NCBI RefSeq assembly: GCF_025370755.1
Contig: NZ_JAMXFC010000027.1
Coordinates: forward strand, 1-64,000
Source of the DNA: Laspinema sp. D2d
GTDB lineage: Bacteria; Cyanobacteriota; Cyanobacteriia; Cyanobacteriales; Laspinemataceae
DNA length: 64,000 bases
Reading direction: 5' to 3'
The notes below the pieces were generated by a model. It was not told where the DNA came from. It saw only the letters and a program-made list of their open reading frames with translations, and did not search any database. The position numbers and the translations under genes are program-made. Shown piece after piece: positions 42,151 to 53,928 of the stretch; position 1 is the stretch's first letter; every line of letters begins with the position of its first letter.

Positions 42151-42368
42151 GGGAGATGGGGGAGATGGGGGAGATGGGGGAGATGGGGGAGATGGGGAGG
42201 ATGGGGAGGATGGGGGAGATGGGGAGGATGGGGGAGATGGGTTGGGGGTTTGAGTGAAGTCGTTACCCCCCTTTCAACGTCACGACTTCAGCCATTTCCT
42301 GTCCCCACCTCCCCTATCCTCCCTATCCTCCCCATCCTCCCCATCCTCCCTATCCTCCCCATCCTCCC
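42151..42368. repeat. Second mirrored 9-bp repeat locus
   Basis: GGGGAGATG and GGGGAGGAT units run from 42151, the base after the gltB stop, to about 42248. A unique core of about 55 bp contains a 9-bp inverted repeat (TGAAGTCGT 42255-42263, ACGACTTCA 42282-42290). CCCATCCTC and CCTATCCTC units follow to about 42368. The layout is the same as at 7791-8000: purine arm, core, pyrimidine arm, between convergent genes. The last units encode the final GGWGG of the cyclase gene on the minus strand and its TAG stop. Confidence 0.88.
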
Positions 42369-44299
42369 AGTAACCAATAAGTCATCATCTCTCCTCTTCC
42401 TTTCACCTCAACCAGTCCGCGTGGCTCAAAGTGGAACTGATGTTTTAAGCGTTCGTAAACGGTTTCTGTGACTTGAATTTTGCCGGGGATGCCGGATGAT
42501 TCCATGCGCGAGGCGACATTGACGGCATCTCCCCATAAGTCGTAACTGAACTTTTTGACGCCAATCACACCCGCAACAACGGGTCCGGTGTTGATGCCGA
42601 TTCTAATTTGAAGCGTGGACCCATAGTGGGATTGAAATTGGGCGATGCTGGATTGCATTTCTAAGGCCATTTGAGCGATCGCCTCAGCCGAATTGGGGTG
42701 TTTAACAGGAAGTCCACCGACTACCATATAGGCATCACCTATAGTTTTAATTTTCTCTAACCCCAGTTTTTCGCTGAGGGTATCAAAGGTGGAGAAAATT
42801 TCATTGAGTAGGTTGACTAATTCGGGGGGTTGCATTTTGGCCGAAAGCGGGGTGAATCCAACAATATCGGAAAATAAAATGGTGACTTCCTCAAATTGTT
42901 CAGCAATAGCGCTAGTGTCGGTTTTCAAGCGATCGGCAATGGCTTTGGGTAAGATATTTAATAATAATTTTTCGGTTTGTTCTTGACTTTGTTGCAAGGC
43001 AATATCGGTGATTTTTCGCTCTAATTCAGCCCCGGCCCTAGCCGCAAAAATTTTCAATACGAGCTTGCGGGTGTCGTCATCGATCATGGGGTGGGTATCT
43101 AAGACGGCAATATGACCAATCACCTCCCCTGTGGTGTTCATTAAGGGGATTCCGGCATAGCTTTGCACATTCAACGCGGCCAAATCGGCTCGCTCGGGAA
43201 ACCGAGCCGTAATATTTTCAGGATAGTAATAATATTGTCCCTTGGCAATCACTTCATTGCAAGGTGTCCCCACTAAATCATATTCTAATTTTTCAGAAAA
43301 GTTTTGGTCTTTCCAGAAAGATAACATCCGAACTCGGTCTTTTTGCACGTTCGCACATTCCGTAATCAAGGCATAGCGAATTCCCAAAATTTCCGCCAAA
43401 TATTGAACACAAGACTGGAAAAAGTCTTGTCCAGTTTTGGAGGCAGTGCCTTCAACAATGAGTTTGAGGGCTTCTTCTCGCCGTTTGCGATCGCTGATAT
43501 CTCGGACGACACAGAGAACTGAGTTTAAAGAAATGGGGGAAAGGCTTGCAGATGCCTCTATTTTAGTTTGTCCGAGGGTGAAACTATATTCGACTTCTCG
43601 CGTTTCTTGGCGCGCTAAAGCTTCTCGAACTTCAATTAAGAATAACTGAGCAGTTGCTTCGGGAAGTACATCATAGATTGTTTGACCTAATATCTCTTCA
43701 GCGGGTTGGGAAAGCAGCTTAGTATTGGTGTTGGCAATTTTTAAATACCGGCCCTGAGCATCTAAAACATAAATCAATTCATTCATGCTTTTAATGAGGG
43801 CTAATAATTCGTTTTGAGAGGTCTCTAAATCAGTTTGGGCTTTTTCTAGGCCAATAATTGTTCCCTGCAATTCTTCATTTTTAAGGGTTAATTGTTGTTG
43901 GAGGTTTTTTAAATTGAGTTGGGTTTTAACTCGGACTAACACTTCTTCCAATTGAAAAGGTTTGGTAATGTAATCTACGCCTCCAACTTGAAACGCTTTA
44001 AGTTTATCCTCCACTTCATTTCCAGCGCTTAAAAAAATCACAGGAACCTCACGGGTTTGAGGGTCACTTTTTAAATGTTCACAGACTTCATAACCTCCCA
44101 TTTCTGGCATATTAATATCCAGAAGAATTAGGTCAGGAGGAAGCATTTTGGCAGCATTTAACGCATATTTTCCATTAGTCGCTTTACGAATTGAGTACCC
44201 TTGACTCGATAAGAAGTTTGCTAAAAACCGGATATTTTCTAGCTTGTCATCTACAATTAAAATATTGCCAAGCTCTTGAGGGGTGGGAAATTCTGTCAT
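42350..44299 (-). CDS. REC-PAS-GAF adenylate cyclase
   Basis: 649 residues from ATG 44299 (MTEFPTPQEL), supported by TTAGGT upstream; a TTG at 44314 is the alternative. Order: receiver domain (ILIVDDKLEN; acceptor Asp in LILLDINMPEMGG), coiled coil, PAS (about 165-270), GAF (about 285-430), class III cyclase (about 455-645). In the cyclase, metal Asp is in FSDIVGFT. The purine-specifying pair is Lys518 (KIKTIGDAYM) and Asp587 (SYDLWGDAVN), 69 residues apart as in mycobacterial Rv1625c, so it makes cAMP rather than cGMP. Light, redox or phosphorylation input is not known. The extreme C-terminus GGWGG is encoded by the neighbouring repeat. It lies downstream of the kinase and REC genes on the same strand. 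Confidence 0.93.
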   Translation of the reverse strand: MTEFPTPQELGNILIVDDKLENIRFLANFLSSQGYSIRKATNGKYALNAAKMLPPDLILLDINMPEMGGYEVCEHLKSDPQTREVPVIFLSAGNEVEDKLKAFQVGGVDYITKPFQLEEVLVRVKTQLNLKNLQQQLTLKNEELQGTIIGLEKAQTDLETSQNELLALIKSMNELIYVLDAQGRYLKIANTNTKLLSQPAEEILGQTIYDVLPEATAQLFLIEVREALARQETREVEYSFTLGQTKIEASASLSPISLNSVLCVVRDISDRKRREEALKLIVEGTASKTGQDFFQSCVQYLAEILGIRYALITECANVQKDRVRMLSFWKDQNFSEKLEYDLVGTPCNEVIAKGQYYYYPENITARFPERADLAALNVQSYAGIPLMNTTGEVIGHIAVLDTHPMIDDDTRKLVLKIFAARAGAELERKITDIALQQSQEQTEKLLLNILPKAIADRLKTDTSAIAEQFEEVTILFSDIVGFTPLSAKMQPPELVNLLNEIFSTFDTLSEKLGLEKIKTIGDAYMVVGGLPVKHPNSAEAIAQMALEMQSSIAQFQSHYGSTLQIRIGINTGPVVAGVIGVKKFSYDLWGDAVNVASRMESSGIPGKIQVTETVYERLKHQFHFEPRGLVEVKGRGEMMTYWLLGGWGG

Positions 44300-44812
44300 A
44301 AGGTTACCTAACAATAAAGTTCAGTTACTTTTAATTCTCTAAATTGCGAGATTAAATCAGGCTAAAAATCCGTCCTGATTAATGAAATTGTTAAAATATC
44401 GGAAGAGGTTTAAGGGGGTAATTTCATCAGTTGCATAGGGGGAATTTTATTATTCATCCCGTAAAATCCGGTTAATATCTCATTTTTTCTCAAGTTAAGG
44501 TGTGGGGTATCTAAATAGGAGATTAGAAACGCCCCAAATTTTTGAATTACCCTAAGCGATCGCTCTTCCTCCTAGGTATGAGACCCGTAAGCCATCCCCT
44601 AGGCTTTGCATCAAGATTCAGGGGTAGAATTAAAGTCAATTCTTAATTCCTTAAACCCTAAAGAATTGCTCTGTTGGCATGAGAGACCCATTTCATCAAT
44701 CCTTAATAACTACGATAGGGGACTGACAATTACGACTATAGAGGGTGTGATTTAATGTCATTTAATGAATCAAGAAAATGAACTGTAAATAATTGAAATA
44801 AATCAGATAGAT
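44300..44812. other. Spacer between REC gene and cyclase gene
   Basis: 513 bp, AT-rich, no gene. The gap makes a separate promoter for the cyclase likely. No repeat or RNA recognised. Confidence 0.45.
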
Positions 44813-45232
44813 TTAATAAATGGAGGCTGTTTCTATCTGTTTTTTGATAGCCTCCATGAGTTTCTCTATATTAAAAGGCTTAGAAATATAGTCGGCTCCT
44901 CCTGTACTAATAGCTTTCCGTTTTTCGGAAGGATCATCATTAGCACTCAAAAATATGATGGGAATATCAAGGGTATTGGGGTCAGATTTAATGAGATGAC
45001 AGAGTTGATAGCCACTCATATCCGGCATTTGAACATCTAACAGAATTAGACGGGGTTTAGAGGATTCAATCGCCGTCAGTGCCATTTTCCCATTGAGCGC
45101 TTTTCGAGTTTGATATCCCCGTTTCACTAAAATCCGAGAGAGTAGGCGAATGTTATCGGCTACATCATCTACGATTAAAATATCAAGGGGATGGGCTAAA
45201 TTTGAGCCGGGGATTTGAGATTGAGTAACCAT
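44813..45232 (-). CDS. REC-only response regulator
   Basis: 139 residues: a short N-terminal tail and one receiver domain. Key residues: LIVDDVADN, acceptor Asp in LILLDVQMPDMSGYQL, Ser in FLSAND, Lys in ISKPFNIEKL. There is no output domain. It begins 5 bp after the stop of the hybrid kinase gene, so the pair is co-transcribed and the kinase is its likely phosphodonor. REC-only proteins act by protein contact; the cyclase downstream, with its own REC domain of the same type, is a possible partner (inference). Confidence 0.93.
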   Translation of the reverse strand: MVTQSQIPGSNLAHPLDILIVDDVADNIRLLSRILVKRGYQTRKALNGKMALTAIESSKPRLILLDVQMPDMSGYQLCHLIKSDPNTLDIPIIFLSANDDPSEKRKAISTGGADYISKPFNIEKLMEAIKKQIETASIY

Positions 45233-45237
45233 GAAAT

Positions 45238-48200
45238 TTAAGTCGATAAAGTTGGGGAGGGAGGTTGAGCCAATTCCATCAGGCGATCAAATTGGTAGTT
45301 TTCTAAGAGATCAGTTAAAGTTTCGATTAGCTCAGAGTGTTCCCGTGGAATCCTATTCAGGAGTTCTAAAGCTAGGGTATCGCTGCCTTGGGCGACGGCA
45401 TTGTAAAATTGGTTCACCCAATCTGGGGGCATAAATTGTAAGGCATCAGCCTCAAGTGAGCAAGTTGATTCTTTATTCTGGGAACTGGGACGAGTGGGGG
45501 TAATTTTCGTCTCCTGGTAGGAGTATTTTGCCCCAAGATAATGGGAGAGGGTCTCTAAAATTTCTTCTCGCCGGAAGGGTTTGCTGACGAAATTATCGCA
45601 ACCAACTTGTAAACACTCTTCTCGATTTTCTGAAAAGGCACTGGCAGTAATCGCGATAATCGGAGGAACAGGGGCTAAATCACGGGAGGGGTTCCTGCGG
45701 GTTCCGAATTGTTTAATTCGTTGGGTTGCCTCATATCCATCCATTTTGGGCATATGCATATCCATAAAAATTAGGTGAGGATGCCATTGTTGCCAACTGG
45801 CGATCGCCACTTCCCCATTTTCGGCTTCGTTAACTTCCACGCCGATATCCTTTAACAAGGTGACTAATAACAATCGGTTAATCGGGTTATCTTCTACTAC
45901 CAAAATTCGATAGTTCGGTTGTCCTGGTGCTAACCGAATAGCACCATTGAGATCGCAAGAATGTTCCATGCTGGACCCTTGAACCAAACCCACGGGAATC
46001 TCAAATTTAAAACTACTGCCTTCCCCTACAGTACTGGTAACGGTAATCAGTCCTCCCATTAATTGGACAAATTTCTGAGAAATTCGCAGTCCTAACCCTG
46101 TTCCTTCTTGGGATTGGCGTCCTACCCGAGTTTGCTGAAAGGCTTGAAATAGGTCCTTGATGTCTTCGGAACTGAGTCCGGGACCCGTATCTTCTACTTC
46201 AAATTTCAAGGTAGATTGGTAGGGGTTCTCCTTTTGATCTGAAAATTCTGGGCGAGATATCCGCAGGGTAACTAGCCCGGTGTTGGTAAATTTGATAGCA
46301 TTTCCCAGCAGATTAATGAGCACCTGGCGCAATTTATTTTCATCCCCGCGAATAAATTGCGGTAGGCTGGGTTGCAGTTCAAATTTCAGGCTTAAACCCT
46401 TAGATTTGGCTTTGAGTTGCAGCATGGATTCCAAGCTGTACACCAGTTTAGGGAGGTCAAATTCCACCTCATTCAGGGTGACTCGCCCCGCTTCGATTTT
46501 CGACATTTCTAAGACATCGTTAATCAGAGCGAGTAAATGGGAGCCACTTTTGTTGATAATGTCAATATATCCTTGATGCAGATCCGCAAGAGAACTATCC
46601 CGTTGCATCAGTTGAGTAAACCCTAAAATGGCATTTAGAGGTGTTCTCAGTTCGTGGCTCATATTGGCTAAAAATTCACTTTTAGCTCGGTTGGCTGCAT
46701 TGGCAGCTTCAGCGGTGCGATGCAATTCTTCGGCTTGTTTGTGGGTTTGGGCAAATAGTTCGGCTTGTTGGACGGCGACTCCCAATTGATTACCAATTTG
46801 GATAACAATTTTAACTTCCGCCTCTTTCCAATCTCGGGGACCGCTATTTTGATACACTCCCAGCAAGCCCCAAAGTGTACTTCCGGAAAAGATGGGTGCA
46901 ATCACATAAGCCCGGGCGCTTAATTGCTCTAAAAATTTGAGATAGCAGGAGCTAAAACCGGCTTGATAAATATCAGAAACTGAACAAAATGTTTGTTTCT
47001 GACGATAGATTCCTCCTTCCTGTTCTTGCAGGTAGGTGTCTTTAATCAACAAATTTGATGAATTCATTTGAGTGAGGACACAACTGGGTCCATCGGTGGT
47101 GACTTGTGTCAGGAGAGGGTCGTCTGCTTGTTCGGGCAATAACATATCCCAACCCGGGGTAACAGACTCGGAAACTAATGCACCACTCCAATCAGGATTA
47201 AAGCGATAAATCATGACGCGATCGCAGTCAACGGCTTGGCGCAGTTCGTTAGTGGTGGCATGAAAAATTGTTTCTAAATTTAAACTTTCCCGCATCCGTT
47301 GGATGATCAGAGAAATGGTTTTTTCCCGTTCTGCCATCACCCGCAGTTCGGCTTCCATCTCAATCCGTTCTTGAATTTCGGTTTCTAAAGTCGAGTTTAC
47401 AGCGACCAATTCAGCAGTGCGCTTCTGAACCCGAGATTCTAACTCTTCATAAGCCAAATGTTTCTCTTCTTCCGCCCATTTTCTTTGCAGTTCCGTAGCG
47501 GCTCTGGCCGCAAATACACTCATAATTGCTCGGGCTTGATCCTGCTCCTCTAAGGGCTTGACATCGAGAATACACAGGGTCCCGATCGCCTGGTGATTGC
47601 CATCTAATAAAGAAACTCCCAGATAGCTTTCGGCTCCAATTTCTTCCAGCAAAGGATCATTGGGAAAATGTTCCTGCAATTTCTCGGGATAGCAGGCAAA
47701 GTCTTGATTATAAGTAATAAAATCGCAAGGTCTTCCGGTAAAGTTATAAGTAAAATTATTACCCAAATCATCCCCAGCCCAAAAACCTAGACTCTCTAAA
47801 GTTTGGTCTTGCTCGTGATTTTTTTCTGAAACAATTACATACTTGACATTTAAAGCCTTGGCTAAGTTCTTAACGAGGGCCGGAAAAAAATCTTGTCCTG
47901 TAACGGAGGCAGTTCCGGACACAAGCGCTTGCAGAATTTCTTCCGTTCGTTGCCGTTGTAGCACTTCTTTCTGCAATTCGTGATTAACGGCTTCGAGCTG
48001 TTCTGGGGTGCGGAGGGCCAGAAATTGGGGCAGCAGTTCCACCAGTCGCAAGGCGGTATAGCAAGAAACAATGGCGGTGAGGGCTCGCTCAATTCCCGAA
48101 ACCCAATAATCAGGATGCCACAGGGTCCAAATATCTAATAAATGACCCACTCCACAGAGAACAATAAAGGCTCCAAACATCGCAAAGATGCTAGAAAACG

Positions 48201-48378
48201 CAATGTCTCTGCGTTTGTAGATGAAGTAAATCAGCATCGTGGGAATGGAGAAGTAGGCGATCGCAATTAGCGCATCGCTAACCAGATGCAGTGCAACGAG
48301 GGGAGTTTGCCAAAGGTAACAATGGCCGTGTGGAATATAGTAACGTGGGGTCAGAAAATCGTTCAAGAATTCCAGCAC
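45238..48378 (-). CDS. Ethylene-receptor-like hybrid histidine kinase with bilin-like GAF
   Basis: 1046 residues. Residues 1-120 hold three membrane helices of the plant ETR1 ethylene-binding type. Asp35, Tyr42, Ile45, Pro46, Ile72, Cys75 and His79 match ETR1 Asp25, Tyr32, Ile35, Pro36, Ile62, Cys65 and His69 with a constant offset of ten; Cys75/His79 (VLCGVGHLL) are the copper ligands. Then GAF1 (about 145-308), coiled coil, GAF2 (about 352-530), HisKA with MSHELRTPL (His575), HATPase (DTGPGL, GTGLGLRIS) and a receiver (Asp873 in FMDMHMPKMDG) with a helical tail. GAF2 is cyanobacteriochrome-like (DIYQAGFSSCYLKFL, then LWGLLGVYQNSGPRDW): the bilin Cys is kept (Cys478) but the next residue is Tyr, not His, and no DXCF cysteine is seen. 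The layout resembles Synechocystis Slr1212 (SynEtr1/UirS). Ethylene binding is well supported; light sensing is possible. Confidence 0.93.
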   Translation of the reverse strand: MLEFLNDFLTPRYYIPHGHCYLWQTPLVALHLVSDALIAIAYFSIPTMLIYFIYKRRDIAFSSIFAMFGAFIVLCGVGHLLDIWTLWHPDYWVSGIERALTAIVSCYTALRLVELLPQFLALRTPEQLEAVNHELQKEVLQRQRTEEILQALVSGTASVTGQDFFPALVKNLAKALNVKYVIVSEKNHEQDQTLESLGFWAGDDLGNNFTYNFTGRPCDFITYNQDFACYPEKLQEHFPNDPLLEEIGAESYLGVSLLDGNHQAIGTLCILDVKPLEEQDQARAIMSVFAARAATELQRKWAEEEKHLAYEELESRVQKRTAELVAVNSTLETEIQERIEMEAELRVMAEREKTISLIIQRMRESLNLETIFHATTNELRQAVDCDRVMIYRFNPDWSGALVSESVTPGWDMLLPEQADDPLLTQVTTDGPSCVLTQMNSSNLLIKDTYLQEQEGGIYRQKQTFCSVSDIYQAGFSSCYLKFLEQLSARAYVIAPIFSGSTLWGLLGVYQNSGPRDWKEAEVKIVIQIGNQLGVAVQQAELFAQTHKQAEELHRTAEAANAANRAKSEFLANMSHELRTPLNAILGFTQLMQRDSSLADLHQGYIDIINKSGSHLLALINDVLEMSKIEAGRVTLNEVEFDLPKLVYSLESMLQLKAKSKGLSLKFELQPSLPQFIRGDENKLRQVLINLLGNAIKFTNTGLVTLRISRPEFSDQKENPYQSTLKFEVEDTGPGLSSEDIKDLFQAFQQTRVGRQSQEGTGLGLRISQKFVQLMGGLITVTSTVGEGSSFKFEIPVGLVQGSSMEHSCDLNGAIRLAPGQPNYRILVVEDNPINRLLLVTLLKDIGVEVNEAENGEVAIASWQQWHPHLIFMDMHMPKMDGYEATQRIKQFGTRRNPSRDLAPVPPIIAITASAFSENREECLQVGCDNFVSKPFRREEILETLSHYLGAKYSYQETKITPTRPSSQNKESTCSLEADALQFMPPDWVNQFYNAVAQGSDTLALELLNRIPREHSELIETLTDLLENYQFDRLMELAQPPSPTLST

Positions 48379-48802: not shown

Positions 48803-50173
48803 GTGTTAAGTGTGGTTTTTCCTGATAGCCCATTGGAACGAACAACAGCTCAAAAACGTAGAAGAGGGGTGATTCTCAGCTCTCAGGGTGCTCAACGCTT
48901 ACAAGCGGCGGAGCATTTGTCAGCCGCACGGGATAATGGTGGCAACTCCTACACCTTGGAAGAGTTAAGCGATCGCACCGGACTGAGTACCAAAACTCTG
49001 ACAAAAGTCCGGCATCGACAAAAGCCGGTCGATTGTGTCACCTTAGCCGACTACTTCACCGCATTTGGCCTTTCCCTCCAAACCCAGGACTATGTTAGCC
49101 AGGAGCCCGACCCCGAGGCATCAATGGCCGCTTTAACGGGTTTACTCAGGACCCCACTGAAGGGACAGTTAGTGGTTGATTCTCCATTCTACATCTATCG
49201 ATCCCCGGCGGAACAGCTTCTGAAAGCTGAGAGTTTGCAACCGGGGGCCTTAATTCGGATTCGAGGGCCTCGACAGTTTGGCAAAACTTCTTTAGTAGTG
49301 CGGGGATTTACGCCTGTAGAAGAAAGTGATTTTCGCATCGCGATCGTCAGTTTGCAACTGGCCGATAGCGGTGTTTTTGACAGTTTAACAGTTTTCTTGC
49401 AATGGTTGTGTGTCATGATCACCCGGAGCCTGGGATTACCCAATCGCCTAGACGAATTTTGGAATCCGATGTTTGGCAGCAGCTATAGTTGCAATGATTA
49501 TTTTGAAAGCTATTTGCTGCCTGCGGCTGAAAATCCACTGTTGCTCGTCTTGGATGAAGTAAATTTAGTCTTTAGCTATCCGAAGATTGCCACGGATTTT
49601 TTTGGAATGCTCCGCGCTTGGTATGAGCGATCGCGTCACAGTACCGAGGGAAGTGAACTCTGGCAAAAACTCCGGTTAGTTATTATCTATTCTACGGATG
49701 TTTTTCTGCCGTTAACGGTGCATCAATCGCCGTTTAATGTTGGGTTATTAATTAATTTATCAGCATTTACGGTAGAACAGGTTGAGGAGTTAGCGGTGCG
49801 TTATGGATTAATGCCCCCCGAACACTATGCCACTCGTGCGATCGCCCTGCTTGGCGGCCATCCCTACTTAACCCAATTGGCCTTTTTTCACTTAAGTCAA
49901 CAAACCGTCACCCTCGAAAGCTTGCTCGAAACTATCACGACTCCCGATAGCATCTTTGAGAGTCATTTACGGCAACAATTCGCCTATTTAGAGCAGCATC
50001 CTGACCTCAAGGATGCCTGGAAATCAGTGATTTTGGCCCCAACGGGTGTAGAATTGCACCCCACCCAAGCTTTTAAATTGCAGGGATTGGGATTAATTAA
50101 ATTTGAAAATCAGTTAGCCTTCCCCAGTTGTCTGCTTTATCAAACTTATTTTTCCCGATTCTTGAAAGACTAG
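48803..50173 (+). CDS. AAA-like ATPase with N-terminal winged-helix-like region
   Basis: 456 residues from GTG 48803. Residues about 20-95 look like a DNA-binding-type helical domain (YTLEELSDRTGLSTKTLTKV). The ATPase follows: Walker A RGPRQFGKTS (155-163), Walker B VLDEVNLVF (about 249-257), typical of the AAA-like/STAND proteins common in cyanobacteria, and a helical C-terminal lid. No transmembrane segment. These proteins are usually regulators or sensors of unknown input. The same ATPase type starts the next gene on this strand, but the two are separated by a 250-bp G-rich repeat spacer, so co-transcription is uncertain. Confidence 0.8.
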   Translation: MLSVVFPDSPLERTTAQKRRRGVILSSQGAQRLQAAEHLSAARDNGGNSYTLEELSDRTGLSTKTLTKVRHRQKPVDCVTLADYFTAFGLSLQTQDYVSQEPDPEASMAALTGLLRTPLKGQLVVDSPFYIYRSPAEQLLKAESLQPGALIRIRGPRQFGKTSLVVRGFTPVEESDFRIAIVSLQLADSGVFDSLTVFLQWLCVMITRSLGLPNRLDEFWNPMFGSSYSCNDYFESYLLPAAENPLLLVLDEVNLVFSYPKIATDFFGMLRAWYERSRHSTEGSELWQKLRLVIIYSTDVFLPLTVHQSPFNVGLLINLSAFTVEQVEELAVRYGLMPPEHYATRAIALLGGHPYLTQLAFFHLSQQTVTLESLLETITTPDSIFESHLRQQFAYLEQHPDLKDAWKSVILAPTGVELHPTQAFKLQGLGLIKFENQLAFPSCLLYQTYFSRFLKD

Positions 50174-50421
50174 ACTTCTTGCCAAATTCTCTTAAGCCCC
50201 CCAAGAATTAACTATTTATTCCTCGGGCTTTCCCCTTCTTAAGGGGGACGGGAGGGGGATTCAAGGGGGTTGGGGGGATCAATCCGGTATTCTGCAAGAA
50301 TTCTAATAATTGAGGGAGAGAAAAGAATGATTTAAAAATTTTATTTCCTCTCCCTTTAATTTAAAGTCACCCCTTTATTTACCTGACCCTTTAAACTATT
50401 TTATTCTTAGTTAATGTACCC
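50174..50421. repeat. G/C-tract repeat spacer between two ATPase genes
   Basis: Alternating C-runs and G-runs: TAAGCCCCCC near 50193-50202, then CCCCTTCTTAAGGGG (50232-50246) as a palindrome, then GGGAGGGGG, AAGGGGG and TTGGGGGG up to 50279. The outer C6 and G6 tracts can pair across about 70 bp. Such GGGGGA/TCCCCC spacers are frequent between cyanobacterial genes and behave as dispersed repeats. The following 50285-50421 is AT-rich leader of the WD40 gene. Confidence 0.6.
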
Positions 50422-53400
50422 ATGCCACTTCTCAAAAACTCAGATTTTTCTTATCAAGTTGGCGGGAGTTTACCCTTTAATGCTCCCACTTATGTGCGCC
50501 GATTAGCGGATGAAACCTTATTTCATGAATTGGTTAAAGGAGAATTCTGCTATGTGTTTAATGCACGACAAATGGGCAAATCCAGTTTGCGGGTGCAAAC
50601 GACCCATCGCTTACAATCGATTGGGATTCGTTGTGGGGTAATTGATGTAACTGCAATTGGCACCCAAGAGGTCACCCCAGAACAGTGGTATGGGTCGATT
50701 GTCGGATTATTGACTAAGGCATTTCGACTGCAAGTGAATCTGTTAAGTTGGTGGCGCGATCGCGCTCATTCCTCCTATGTCAATCGCTTAAGTGATTTTT
50801 TGGAAACTGTTCTGCTGGCGCAAGTCCCTGAACCCATTGTTATTTTTATTGATGAAATTGATAGTGTTCTCAGTTTAAATTTTTCTACGGATGATTTTTT
50901 TGCCCTAATTCGGGCCTGTTATAACCGCCGCGCCGATCATGAAGAGTATCGCCGGTTAGCCTTTGCTTTATTTGGCGTGGCAACCCCGGCTGATTTAATT
51001 TCCGATGGCAGTCGCACTCCTTTTAATATTGGAAAAGGGATTGAATTATCGGGATTTGAATTTCAAGAAAATTCGCCATTATTGGGGGGATTGTCTCCGC
51101 AATTTGCCGATCCTCACTTAGCATTAAAGCGGATTCTCTATTGGACCGGGGGTCAACCTTTTTTGACTCAAAAACTCTGTCAAATGATTTCCAGCCACTC
51201 CGGGGACAATTATCCGGAATTAACACCAGATTTTATCAATCGTTTAGTAGAGACGAATCTGATTGGAAACTGGAAAGCCAATGATGAACCCGAACATTTT
51301 AAAACCATCTGCGATCGCCTGCTTTATAGTGAACAGCGAGTTGGGCGGTTGCTAGGACTCTACCAAAAAATTCTCCTGCATTCGGAAGAGGATGAAACTT
51401 CCTCGGGGTTTGAAAAAGTGGCGGCTGATGATAGTTCGGAACAAACTGAATTAATGTTAACCGGATTAATCGAAAAACGCGAAGGTATTCTACAGATTAA
51501 AAATCCCATTTATCAGAACATTTTTAGTTTTGATTGGGTCGCCAACCAACTGGCAAATCTCCGGCCCTATTCTCAGGCGATCGATGCTTGGATAGTCTCC
51601 GGATATCAGGATAAATCCTGGCTATTGCGGGGAAAAGCCTTACGGGATATTCTCGATTGGTCCCAGGGGAAAAGTCTGAGTAATTTGGATTATCAATTTC
51701 TAGCAGCTTCACAAGAATTAGACCGGGAGGAAACGCAAAGAACCTTAGAAGCGGAACGACTCCAAGAAGTAGAAGCGCGACTACAATTAGAACAGCGTCA
51801 CTTAAAGCGCCAAACTCTCCTGTTAGGAATTCTCAGCATGGCGACTATCATTGCCAGCAGTTTGGGTGGGTTTGCGTATCAGCAATATCAACAAACAGCA
51901 CTAAGTGAACTACGAGCGATTACGTTATCTTCAGAAGCATTATTTGCCTCTAATAAAAGTTTAAATGCGCTGCTTCAAGCTATTAAAGGAAAAGAACGCT
52001 TAAAACAGCTTAAAATTCTCGATTCACAACTGAACAAAAGCCTGGATGATGCCCTTTGGCAAGTGATTTTAAGCATTCAGGAATCTAATCGGCTCAATGG
52101 TCATACCGCAGCCGTTTTAGCGGTGGATTACAGTCCCGATGGGCAAGAAATTGTCACGGCTGGAGTTGATGGAACCCTCAAACTTTGGAATAGAGATGGC
52201 AAACTGATTCAAACCTTAACTGGACATCAAGCTGTGGTTCGGGTGGTCAAATTTAGTCCCAATGGAAAATTTTTAGTTTCATCGGGTGATGATAAAACCC
52301 TTAAATTTTGGAACCGAGATGGAACCTTATTAAGTTCAGTTCAGGCGAATACTTCAGGCATTTGGAGTCTTGACTTTAGTCCTGATGGTGAGCAGGTGAT
52401 TTCTGGAGGGTCTGATAGTACCGTAGAAGCCTGGAATTCTCAGGGTGAATTAGTGAGGCGATTTGAAGGAGAAACCACGGGAATTCGGGCTGTAGCATTT
52501 AGTCCTGATGGTCAAACCGTTGCAGCAGGTAAAATTGATAATACTATCCAGTTATGGAATGCACAGGGGAGTAAACTCCGGGAATTAGTTGGACATCCAG
52601 CCCCAATTTATGCGATCGCCTTTAGTCCAGATAATACCCTTTTGGCCTCGGGTACCGTGGATGGGATGATTAATATTTGGACCCGAGAAGGAACCCTCCT
52701 CCATACTGTAAAAGCCCATGATGCCACCGTTAAAGAACTGAGATTTAGCCCAGATAGCAGCATTTTAGCCTCGGTAAGCTGGGATAAAACTCTAAAACTT
52801 TGGAAACGGGATGGCACGTTAATTTCCACTCTGCGCGGTCATGATGCGGCAATTTGGGGAATGGCTTTTAGTCCCGATGGTAAAGAAATTGCTTCGGCGG
52901 GTGCAGAAAATGTGGCAATTCTTTGGAAAACAAACAGCATTTTTCAGCAAAAATTATATGCCTTAAATGGGTTAGTACGGGGATTATCATTGAGTGCCGA
53001 TGGCAATTTTATTGCTACATCAGGCAGCGAGAAAACTTTTCATATTTGGCAACTCGATGGAACAAAGGGACAACCCGTAGAAGGTCATACTGCATCGGTT
53101 GTTAATATCGATTTCCATCCTCAGCAGGAAATGATCGCATCAGTGAGCGAAGATAAAACCCTCAAAATCTGGAACTTGGATGGCACTCTTTTAAAAACTT
53201 TTGATGATGCGAATGCCGCTTTATTATCGGTTAATTGGGACTTTAATGGTGAAAGACTGGCTGCCGGAGATGCCAATGGAGTCGTTTGGTTGTGGAGTCG
53301 CCAAGAGGGTTTTATAAAACCTTTAAAGGGACATACTGCCCCCACTTGGAGCGTTGAATTTAGCCCCGATGGTCAACTTTTGGCGTCGGCGAGTAACGAT

Positions 53401-53928
53401 TCCACGATTCGACTTTGGAACCGATCCGGACAGCTTTTAAAAACTCTGAACGGTCATAATTCGGCAGTTTGGAAAGTTACCTTTAGTCCCGATGGGGAAA
53501 TGATAGCCTCGGGTAGTGGCGATATGACAGCTAAACTCTGGCGGAAAGATGGAACATTACTCAAAACTTTGACGGGACATACAGCGGCAGTGTGGGGAAT
53601 TGATTTTAGTCCAGATGGTTCTTTAATTGCGACGAGTAGTATTGATGAAACGATTAAAATTTGGACCCAAGAGGGGGTTTTACTCACGACTTTGACCGGC
53701 CATCAGGCGGGAGTTCGGGCGGTGGCTTTTCATCCAAATTTGCCCATTTTAGCCTCGGTCGGCGATGAACAAGTGATGACCCTTTGGCATCTCGATCGCC
53801 TCCTTAATCTTGACCCCCTGACTTATGCTTGTAATTGGGTCCGAGATTATTTAAAAACTAATCCAGCAGTGCCAACAGATGAAGCGAAACTCTGTACTCG
53901 CAAATTCGGTAAAATTCTATCAAAATAG
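50422..53928 (+). CDS. AAA-like ATPase fused to 14 WD40 repeats
   Basis: 1168 residues. The N-terminal ATPase (about 1-400) has Walker A-like FNARQMGKSS (about 46-55) and Walker B VIFIDEIDSV (about 139-148). A coiled coil with Glu/Arg/Leu (about 430-462) leads to one membrane helix (about 464-488, LLLGILSMATIIASSLGGFA). From about 558 to 1130 come 14 WD40 repeats, each about 41 residues with GH near the start and LW/IW near the end (SPDGQEIVTAGVDGTLKLWN; SPDGKEIASAGAENVAILWK): two seven-bladed propellers. Such sensor-transducer proteins are common in filamentous cyanobacteria; inputs are unknown. The ATPase half resembles the gene just upstream. Confidence 0.9.
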   Translation: MPLLKNSDFSYQVGGSLPFNAPTYVRRLADETLFHELVKGEFCYVFNARQMGKSSLRVQTTHRLQSIGIRCGVIDVTAIGTQEVTPEQWYGSIVGLLTKAFRLQVNLLSWWRDRAHSSYVNRLSDFLETVLLAQVPEPIVIFIDEIDSVLSLNFSTDDFFALIRACYNRRADHEEYRRLAFALFGVATPADLISDGSRTPFNIGKGIELSGFEFQENSPLLGGLSPQFADPHLALKRILYWTGGQPFLTQKLCQMISSHSGDNYPELTPDFINRLVETNLIGNWKANDEPEHFKTICDRLLYSEQRVGRLLGLYQKILLHSEEDETSSGFEKVAADDSSEQTELMLTGLIEKREGILQIKNPIYQNIFSFDWVANQLANLRPYSQAIDAWIVSGYQDKSWLLRGKALRDILDWSQGKSLSNLDYQFLAASQELDREETQRTLEAERLQEVEARLQLEQRHLKRQTLLLGILSMATIIASSLGGFAYQQYQQTALSELRAITLSSEALFASNKSLNALLQAIKGKERLKQLKILDSQLNKSLDDALWQVILSIQESNRLNGHTAAVLAVDYSPDGQEIVTAGVDGTLKLWNRDGKLIQTLTGHQAVVRVVKFSPNGKFLVSSGDDKTLKFWNRDGTLLSSVQANTSGIWSLDFSPDGEQVISGGSDSTVEAWNSQGELVRRFEGETTGIRAVAFSPDGQTVAAGKIDNTIQLWNAQGSKLRELVGHPAPIYAIAFSPDNTLLASGTVDGMINIWTREGTLLHTVKAHDATVKELRFSPDSSILASVSWDKTLKLWKRDGTLISTLRGHDAAIWGMAFSPDGKEIASAGAENVAILWKTNSIFQQKLYALNGLVRGLSLSADGNFIATSGSEKTFHIWQLDGTKGQPVEGHTASVVNIDFHPQQEMIASVSEDKTLKIWNLDGTLLKTFDDANAALLSVNWDFNGERLAAGDANGVVWLWSRQEGFIKPLKGHTAPTWSVEFSPDGQLLASASNDSTIRLWNRSGQLLKTLNGHNSAVWKVTFSPDGEMIASGSGDMTAKLWRKDGTLLKTLTGHTAAVWGIDFSPDGSLIATSSIDETIKIWTQEGVLLTTLTGHQAGVRAVAFHPNLPILASVGDEQVMTLWHLDRLLNLDPLTYACNWVRDYLKTNPAVPTDEAKLCTRKFGKILSK

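Follow-up and report, generated by a model that had tools for sequence, protein, structure and literature searches.

The window analyzed here is the 64,000-bp stretch at positions 1–64,000 of contig NZ_JAMXFC010000027.1 from Laspinema sp. D2d, whose genome is 6.63 Mb. Its minus strand carries genes for an ethylene-receptor-like hybrid histidine kinase, a response regulator consisting of a receiver (REC) domain alone, and a nucleotide cyclase with a REC domain of its own. On the evidence below, we read the kinase as an ethylene and near-UV receptor that would control cyclic AMP (cAMP) through the neighboring cyclase, with a probability of about 0.5. An earlier note on this DNA had described the three genes, and analysis of the open reading frames (ORFs) confirmed their coordinates and strand, the start of the REC-only gene 5 bp past the stop codon of the kinase, and the Cys478-Tyr479 pair in the second GAF domain. 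The features of the locus are as follows.

45238–48378, minus: hybrid histidine kinase, ETR-GAF1-GAF2 (insert-Cys cyanobacteriochrome type, predicted)-HisKA-HATPase-REC-tail, 1046 amino acids (aa), GTG start (ORF, Pfam, orthologues)
48013–48300, minus: ethylene receptor N-terminal (ETR) domain, kinase residues 27–122, with seven ethylene-site residues (PF25487, 1.9e-39)
47449–47946, minus: GAF1, kinase residues about 145–310 (second GAF stretch in Pfam; cross-match between kinase and cyclase)
46771–47280, minus: GAF2, kinase residues 367–536, cyanobacteriochrome type, predicted insert-Cys dual-Cys subclass (Pfam, sequence, model)
47080–47082, minus: codon of Cys433, the insertion-loop Cys and predicted second bilin ligand
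46945–46947, minus: codon of Cys478, the canonical bilin-attachment Cys of the Cys-Tyr motif
46654–46656, minus: codon of His575, predicted phospho-accepting His of HisKA (SHELRTPLN box)
45760–45762, minus: codon of Asp873, the residue predicted to accept phosphate in the REC of the kinase (sequence)
44813–45232, minus: REC-only (CheY-like) response regulator, 139 aa, Asp66 (ORF, Pfam, congeners)
42350–44299, minus: REC-PAS-GAF-class III nucleotide cyclase, predicted adenylate cyclase (Pfam; ORF extends to TTG 44314)
42368–42904, minus: catalytic domain of the cyclase, with Asp483/Asp527, Lys523/Asp592 and Asn599/Arg603 in numbering from the TTG (Pfam, alignment)
43928–44263, minus: receiver domain of the cyclase, Asp66 (invariant), likely the kinase-facing part (Pfam)

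Pfam assigned ETR1_N to residues 27–122 of the kinase, GAF to two stretches (best at 367–536), HisKA to 565–631, HATPase to 678–796, and REC to 825–944; no Hpt domain was matched in the C-terminal tail at E 0.001. GAF1 of the kinase resembled the GAF domain of the cyclase, with 33–38% identity. The gap between the REC-only gene and the cyclase was 498–513 bp, depending on the start codon chosen (TTG or ATG); TTG 44314 is possible as the start, and ATG 44299, with AGGTAA in front of it, is likelier. A gap of this length indicated that the three genes do not form a tight operon in the window. The gap, the insertion-loop residue Cys433 and the presence of three more ETR1_N proteins elsewhere in this genome go beyond the earlier account.

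The kinase orthologues of the congeners were 87–91% identical to the window kinase, and the REC-only gene came next in all seven. The cyclase was present in every one of the five congeners in which the contig runs past the REC-only gene (G001, G002, G003, G005, and G004, where the contig stops inside the cyclase); when the window was included, the kinase–cyclase link was kept in 6/6 such genomes of the genus. In G007 the contig stops and a cyclase match opens another contig (C19:66), and in G006 the contig ends and the cyclase was not found in the genome at the threshold used. Of 291 sampled genomes of the order, a set that includes the window genus, 17 had a cyclase match that reached the threshold of 1e-110. 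Eight matches outside the genus showed 62–68% identity, and all eight of these cyclases directly followed a kinase with the same GAF2-histidine kinase-REC-tail core, which carried an ETR sensor in four cases and an MHYT sensor in the other four. The ETR-linked pairs were spaced by 9 bp (G169), 11 bp (G081), 13 bp (G097) and 73 bp (G257), measured from the earliest start codon that the cyclase could use, and they belonged to three families: f32 (G169), f28 (G081 and G097, of one genus) and f14 (G257). The four MHYT-linked cyclases were all in one genus, with MHYT confirmed by Pfam in one of the four. Among weaker matches, G018 (44%) had no recognised kinase beside the cyclase (L095), and G042 (40%) was left out of the neighborhood comparison. 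That comparison covered 39 of 111 match rows, window included, namely all eight from the genus, the majority of the next-highest rows and some lower ones.

The kinase–cyclase neighborhood is thus conserved within the genus and is found again in three other families, and an absence of the linkage from all close relatives, which the earlier note had named as a refutation, is ruled out. The neighborhoods supported the proposed connection between the kinase and cAMP. They did not support the REC-only protein as its essential carrier, because no REC-only gene lies between kinase and cyclase in G169, G081, G097 and G257, where the cyclase directly follows the kinase. A REC-only gene also followed the kinase in G193 (L072) and is therefore not confined to this genus.

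The genes following the kinase on the same strand were labeled on a kinase tree of 31 rows, window included. Two rows whose contigs stop before a possible cyclase (L026 and L030) and six rows with no tail domain and another kinase type (L083, L084, L089, L090, L098 and L101) were left out. Besides the cyclase, the main outputs were REC-histidine kinases, with HATPase confirmed by Pfam in 10/10, and REC-GGDEF-EAL proteins, confirmed by Pfam in three of six. A second hybrid kinase stood between the kinase and the REC-GGDEF-EAL gene in L033 and L081, and a further REC protein of 428–461 aa followed the REC-GGDEF-EAL gene in L075, L078, L081 and L082. The receivers of the non-genus outputs were 56–74% identical to the receiver of the window cyclase, and because this identity extends across different outputs, it seems that the receiver, which would face the kinase, stays fixed while the output is what gets exchanged. 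The cyclase label required three changes on the tree, at least two of them forced by well-supported branches, and all output labels together required 11 changes, compared with 16.7 for shuffled labels. In the cyclase tree, the four MHYT-linked cyclases grouped with the ETR-linked cyclase of G169 (96/95), which indicated that the sensor (ETR or MHYT) is exchanged on an otherwise kept pair, in either direction. The f28 pair stood beside the window genus in both the kinase and the cyclase trees, with moderate support (92/91 and 93/91). The unicellular cyanobacterium SU3 (L180) had an ETR-GAF2-histidine kinase-REC kinase followed by REC-GGDEF-EAL. In G066, a 284-aa REC-PAS protein (L071:8064-8918), counted among the remaining outputs, lay right after the ETR kinase; it was 74% identical to the window cyclase in REC and 50% in PAS, lacked the GAF and cyclase domains, and looks, from its sequence, like a shortened cyclase gene.

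The neighborhood might be a piece of a large cyanobacterial family of hybrid kinases with REC outputs that is passed on as a block, by descent or by transfer, and has no particular meaning for ethylene and cAMP. This explanation, which we consider somewhat unlikely, agrees with the fact that the same GAF2-histidine kinase-REC-tail core occurs behind MHYT and other N-terminal regions and in front of several kinds of REC output. It is also compatible with coupling, since such blocks often encode partners, and it lowers the novelty of the system rather than touching the mechanism. Alternatively, the kinase may act on motility or gene expression by way of its internal REC and the REC-only protein, the cyclase being separately transcribed and driven by other kinases. 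The spacing of the kinase and REC-only genes (5 bp, versus 498–513 bp before the cyclase), the occurrence of some kinase orthologues without this cyclase, and the dedicated response regulators through which Synechocystis Slr1212 works (PMC5812497) favor such an arrangement. The position of the cyclase 9–73 bp after the kinase, without a REC-only gene, in four genomes of three families, and the same-core kinase found in front of all eight closer non-genus cyclases in the sample, argue against it, and we regard it as unlikely.

The earlier note had suggested that perhaps light is a second input, and analysis of GAF2 sharpened this to a predicted near-UV/violet sensor of the insert-Cys type. The PDB chains nearest to the GAF2 sequence were those of red/green cyanobacteriochromes (6bhn, 3.6e-49; 5zoh, 3w2z and 5dfx). 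A structural model of GAF2 (predicted local distance difference test score (pLDDT) of 71, nine sequences) retrieved 3w2z at rank 1 (1.3e-18, TM 0.77/0.86) and otherwise the same bilin-bound structures. By sequence and model, GAF2 has a bilin-type GAF fold, and no PHY domain was matched by Pfam in the kinase, as in cyanobacteriochromes. In sequence alignments, GAF2 had an insertion of about 20 residues relative to the solved red/green domains; this region, with Cys433 inside the loop, had a pLDDT below 50 in the model (model residues 72–103, corresponding to kinase residues 416–447). GAF2 was aligned in 41 rows (40 and the window); 7 of 38 ETR homologues gave no GAF2 row (L083, L084, L089, L090, L099, L101 and L102). 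Cys478 was retained in 41/41 rows, four of which were of the DXCF type without the insertion loop, including one ETR kinase (L098). Cys433, DTYL and Cys478-Tyr479 were each found in all 37 non-DXCF rows (31 ETR kinases, window included, and six MHYT kinases), although the loop around Cys433 varies. A further residue, Cys465 of the kinase (codon 46984–46986), lies 13 residues before the canonical Cys and was found in 19/41 GAF2 rows, all of ETR kinases.

Insert-Cys cyanobacteriochromes are defined by a second Cys in an insertion loop (Cho et al. 2017, PMC5240096); in this group DTYL replaces DXCF in Mbr3854g4, and Mbl3738g2 is a near-UV/green sensor whose loop Cys was demonstrated to be a ligand (PMC5240096). 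When D447 was placed on D583 of Mbl3738g2 (offset 136), C433, Y449 and L486 coincided with C569, Y585 and L622, and L401 fell on Y537, so that four of the five registered residues were identical and the L401/Y537 pair alone differed. Because Cys433, DTYL and Cys478-Tyr479 are in register with Mbl3738g2, GAF2 is predicted to be an insert-Cys, dual-Cys near-UV/violet sensor; the CXXR/K part of the loop motif was not found in the window, and the assignment is therefore a prediction from the other features. The insertion-loop Cys is shared with Mbl3738g2, Mbr3854g4, NpF2164g3 and NpR1597g2, and the Cys-Tyr of window GAF2 differs from the CH motif of NpF2164g3; the available parts of PMC5240096 make no mention of a link between insert-Cys cyanobacteriochromes and an ethylene domain. 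That GAF2 instead carries its bilin on Cys478 alone, as an ordinary red/green-like cyanobacteriochrome in which Cys433 is no ligand, would fit the mostly red/green-type top structural matches (AnPixJg2, NpR6012g4 and Slr1393 GAF3) and the missing CXXR/K. This is improbable in view of the retention of Cys433 in 37/37 non-DXCF rows despite a variable loop, and of the DTYL and spacing equal to those of Mbl3738g2, whose loop Cys is a proven ligand.

The ETR1_N match of the kinase scored 134.3 bits against a cut-off of 27. The earlier note had listed Asp35, Tyr42, Ile45, Pro46, Ile72, Cys75 and His79 of the kinase as the seven ethylene-site residues, at an offset of ten from their positions in ETR1; all seven were present in the window kinase. 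Ethylene binding needs seven residues (PMC6682694). All seven were retained in 36 of 38 homologous ETR domains, which came from loci chosen for similarity to the window kinase. A model of the domain built from three sequences, of low confidence (pLDDT 58), placed helices at 26–54, 61–85 and 89–120, with the first four site residues on helix 1 and the last three on helix 2; a sequence comparison of the domain with solved structures gave no meaningful match (best E 0.46). ETR1_N was found in 33 of the 39 genomes searched, own genome included, and judging from these matches it is widespread among this group of cyanobacteria. Four matches occurred in the host genome and in each of the seven congeners (one below the cut-off in G006). 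That the N-terminal domain keeps the ethylene fold and senses copper, peroxide or another small alkene, or mainly anchors or dimerizes the protein, is quite unlikely given the intact site residues and the ethylene binding by the SynEtr1 domain and by Geitlerinema cells (PMC6682694), even with four ETR1_N proteins of differing architecture in one genome, beyond the obvious need of one ethylene response, and a redox role discussed for ETR1 and UirS (PMC3546692).

The other ETR1_N proteins of the host genome are a 1227-aa protein with ETR1_N, several PAS domains and an MCP signaling domain on contig C4 (L035:5857-9540, minus), which by its domains looks like an ethylene chemoreceptor; a 2013-aa ETR-PAS-GAF-histidine kinase-REC-REC-Hpt protein on C15 (L034:2266-8307, minus); and, on C82 (L036:6869-9949, minus), an ETR protein of 1026 aa that has two kinase units along with two receivers. 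Broken ETR1_N pieces with in-frame stops were found in two genomes of one genus in the same family (G011:C33:51721-52007 and G012:C1:1365355-1365641) and are probably a decayed receptor gene.

The catalytic domain of the cyclase matched PF00211 at 8.7e-69. D483, K523, D527, D592, N599 and R603 (TTG numbering), together with receiver Asp66, were invariant in 11/11 cyclase homologues; the Lys518 and Asp587 of the earlier note are K523 and D592 when counted from the TTG. We take D483 and D527 to bind metal, K523 and D592 to contact the substrate, and N599 and R603 to stabilize the transition state; because these residues are invariant, the protein is predicted to be an adenylate cyclase. The genome contained 14 matches to cNMP-binding domains, 12 of them over the cut-off, which do not imply cAMP binding. 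Feedback by cAMP through CRP-type sites, with the consensus TGTGA-N6-TCACA, was considered and rejected: the window contained 13 matches with at most two mismatches, compared with a chance mean of 21.6, and there was therefore no sign of cAMP feedback in it.

Several observations weighed against the proposal that the kinase is an ethylene and near-UV receptor controlling cAMP. The 31 tree kinases were followed by the cyclase in 10 cases, by a REC-histidine kinase in 10, by REC-GGDEF-EAL in six and by another gene or none in five. The REC-only gene and the cyclase are 498–513 bp apart in this genus, and a scan of this gap for promoter- or terminator-like sites found none. A contig scan with cyclase alignment, its patterns lying in the receiver, yielded named loci of which the best 80 were kept, often with short flanks; among these, mostly other REC-output proteins, the pair occurred in L105 alone (Laspinema olomoucense D3b, same genus), and 15 other loci had a more distant cyclase and no ETR kinase in the available stretch. 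As to GAF2, the window has CVLT in place of CXXR/K, an element published as poorly conserved (PMC5240096) and present in 13/37 rows, the spacings of Mbr3854g4, the other near-UV/green domain, differ from those of the window, and the 14-residue spacing from C433 to D447 was found in 27/37 rows. As to the ethylene domain, two of the 38 homologues miss one residue (Thr for Pro46 in L101 and Asn for Asp35 in L102), and the structural model is weak.

What the sequences show is the domain make-up, active residues that are intact, motifs that are conserved, and an adjacency that is repeated while the output is swapped. The most economical account would be a single receptor that takes two inputs and has as its output the neighboring enzyme, which bears a receiver. 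We infer the ligand, the chromophore, the direction of the effect and the phosphotransfer as follows. Ethylene would be bound at a copper site in the three-helix N-terminal domain of the membrane receptor kinase, and near-UV/violet light would be sensed by phycocyanobilin attached to Cys478 and, reversibly, to Cys433 of GAF2. The two inputs would jointly set the balance of autophosphorylation at His575, and phosphate would pass to the receiver of the cyclase, directly or via the kinase's own REC, and change cAMP; in this genus, the REC-only protein would be a side branch or a phosphate sink. The earlier interpretation, a phosphorelay from ethylene and perhaps light to cAMP, is partly supported. 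Tentatively, the kinase may belong to an old cyanobacterial family that reads ethylene and near-UV through an insert-Cys bilin domain and in which evolution has swapped the output (cAMP, cyclic di-GMP (c-di-GMP) or a second kinase) by attaching different partners to a single conserved receiver, with cAMP as the output in this genus.

Slr1212 of Synechocystis has a second Cys of the DXCF type, whereas that of the window kinase is predicted to lie in an insertion loop. Compared with Slr1212, the window kinase has GAF1 before the bilin GAF and a C-terminal REC after it, neither of which Slr1212 is known to contain. The comparison with Slr1212 made in the earlier note was apt. Slr1212 (SynEtr1/UirS/PixA/Hik44) shares the N-terminal ethylene-binding domain and histidine kinase (PMC6682694, PMC5812497, PMC3546692); it binds ethylene and is a UV/green receptor with a dual-linked bilin (PMC5812497), the counterpart of the dual-Cys attachment predicted for window GAF2, and ethylene and UV-A alter phototaxis through it (PMC6682694, PMC5812497). 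The neighbors differ: AraC-type and PatA-type regulators accompany Slr1212 in Slr1212-Slr1213-Slr1214 (UirS-UirR-LsiR), whereas the window has the REC-only and REC-PAS-GAF-cyclase genes, and Pfam gave no AraC-type or PatA-type regulator among the same-strand neighbors of the window kinase. Geitlerinema GeiEtr2 (1025 aa; PMC6682694) resembles the window kinase in its ethylene domain, GAF, kinase and REC, and unlike it has PAS/PAC between the ethylene domain and GAF. Its neighbor gene, with a diguanylate cyclase domain, parallels the REC-GGDEF-EAL neighbors of orthologues in other genomes and makes c-di-GMP, whereas the window neighbor is predicted to make cAMP.

The proposed relay from a light-responsive kinase to a cyclase resembles that of Anabaena, although gene partners and cyclase architecture differ between AphC-CyaC and the window. 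The phytochrome-like kinase AphC purportedly phosphorylates and activates the adenylate cyclase CyaC; it differs in its far-red response, and no ethylene domain is mentioned for it in the available text (PMC4284465). In Synechocystis, cAMP increases under blue light and promotes motility (PMC4284465). Because of these precedents and the phototaxis role of Slr1212, a motility response is a plausible endpoint by analogy.

Among the matches listed from the open-access literature, there was no ethylene receptor paired with an adenylate cyclase gene or an insert-Cys cyanobacteriochrome, and no listed paper contained both "ethylene-binding domain" and "insert-Cys". A claim of newness for these pairings is limited to that literature, subscription papers lying outside the search; the position of GeiEtr2 beside a diguanylate cyclase gene is already in print (PMC6682694). 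Only a small number of ethylene receptors from bacteria have been characterized (those of Synechocystis, Geitlerinema and Azospirillum among the papers listed), and their downstream signaling is largely open. A repeatedly adjacent second-messenger enzyme offers a clean readout for a protein that would combine ethylene and light, by way of cAMP here and of c-di-GMP in relatives, and since the pair recurs in several cyanobacterial families, a gas-plus-light pathway to cAMP is directly testable. The natural series of ETR or MHYT sensors with three outputs likewise permits a direct test of the rules of sensor and output exchange. If the GAF2 prediction is true, the combination of an ethylene domain with UV sensing has been reached with second cysteines of two kinds, those of the window type and of Slr1212.

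Upstream of the kinase, the window contained a divergent pair of genes on the plus strand (48803–53928), encoding an AAA_35 ATPase of 456 aa and a protein of 1168 aa with WD40 repeats. The AAA_35 gene lay beside the kinase in seven congeners (in pieces in G006) and in six non-genus genomes (L032, L071, L073, L074, L077 and L078; 62–74% identity). Because it is kept beside the kinase both in and outside the genus, the AAA_35 gene may belong to the system.

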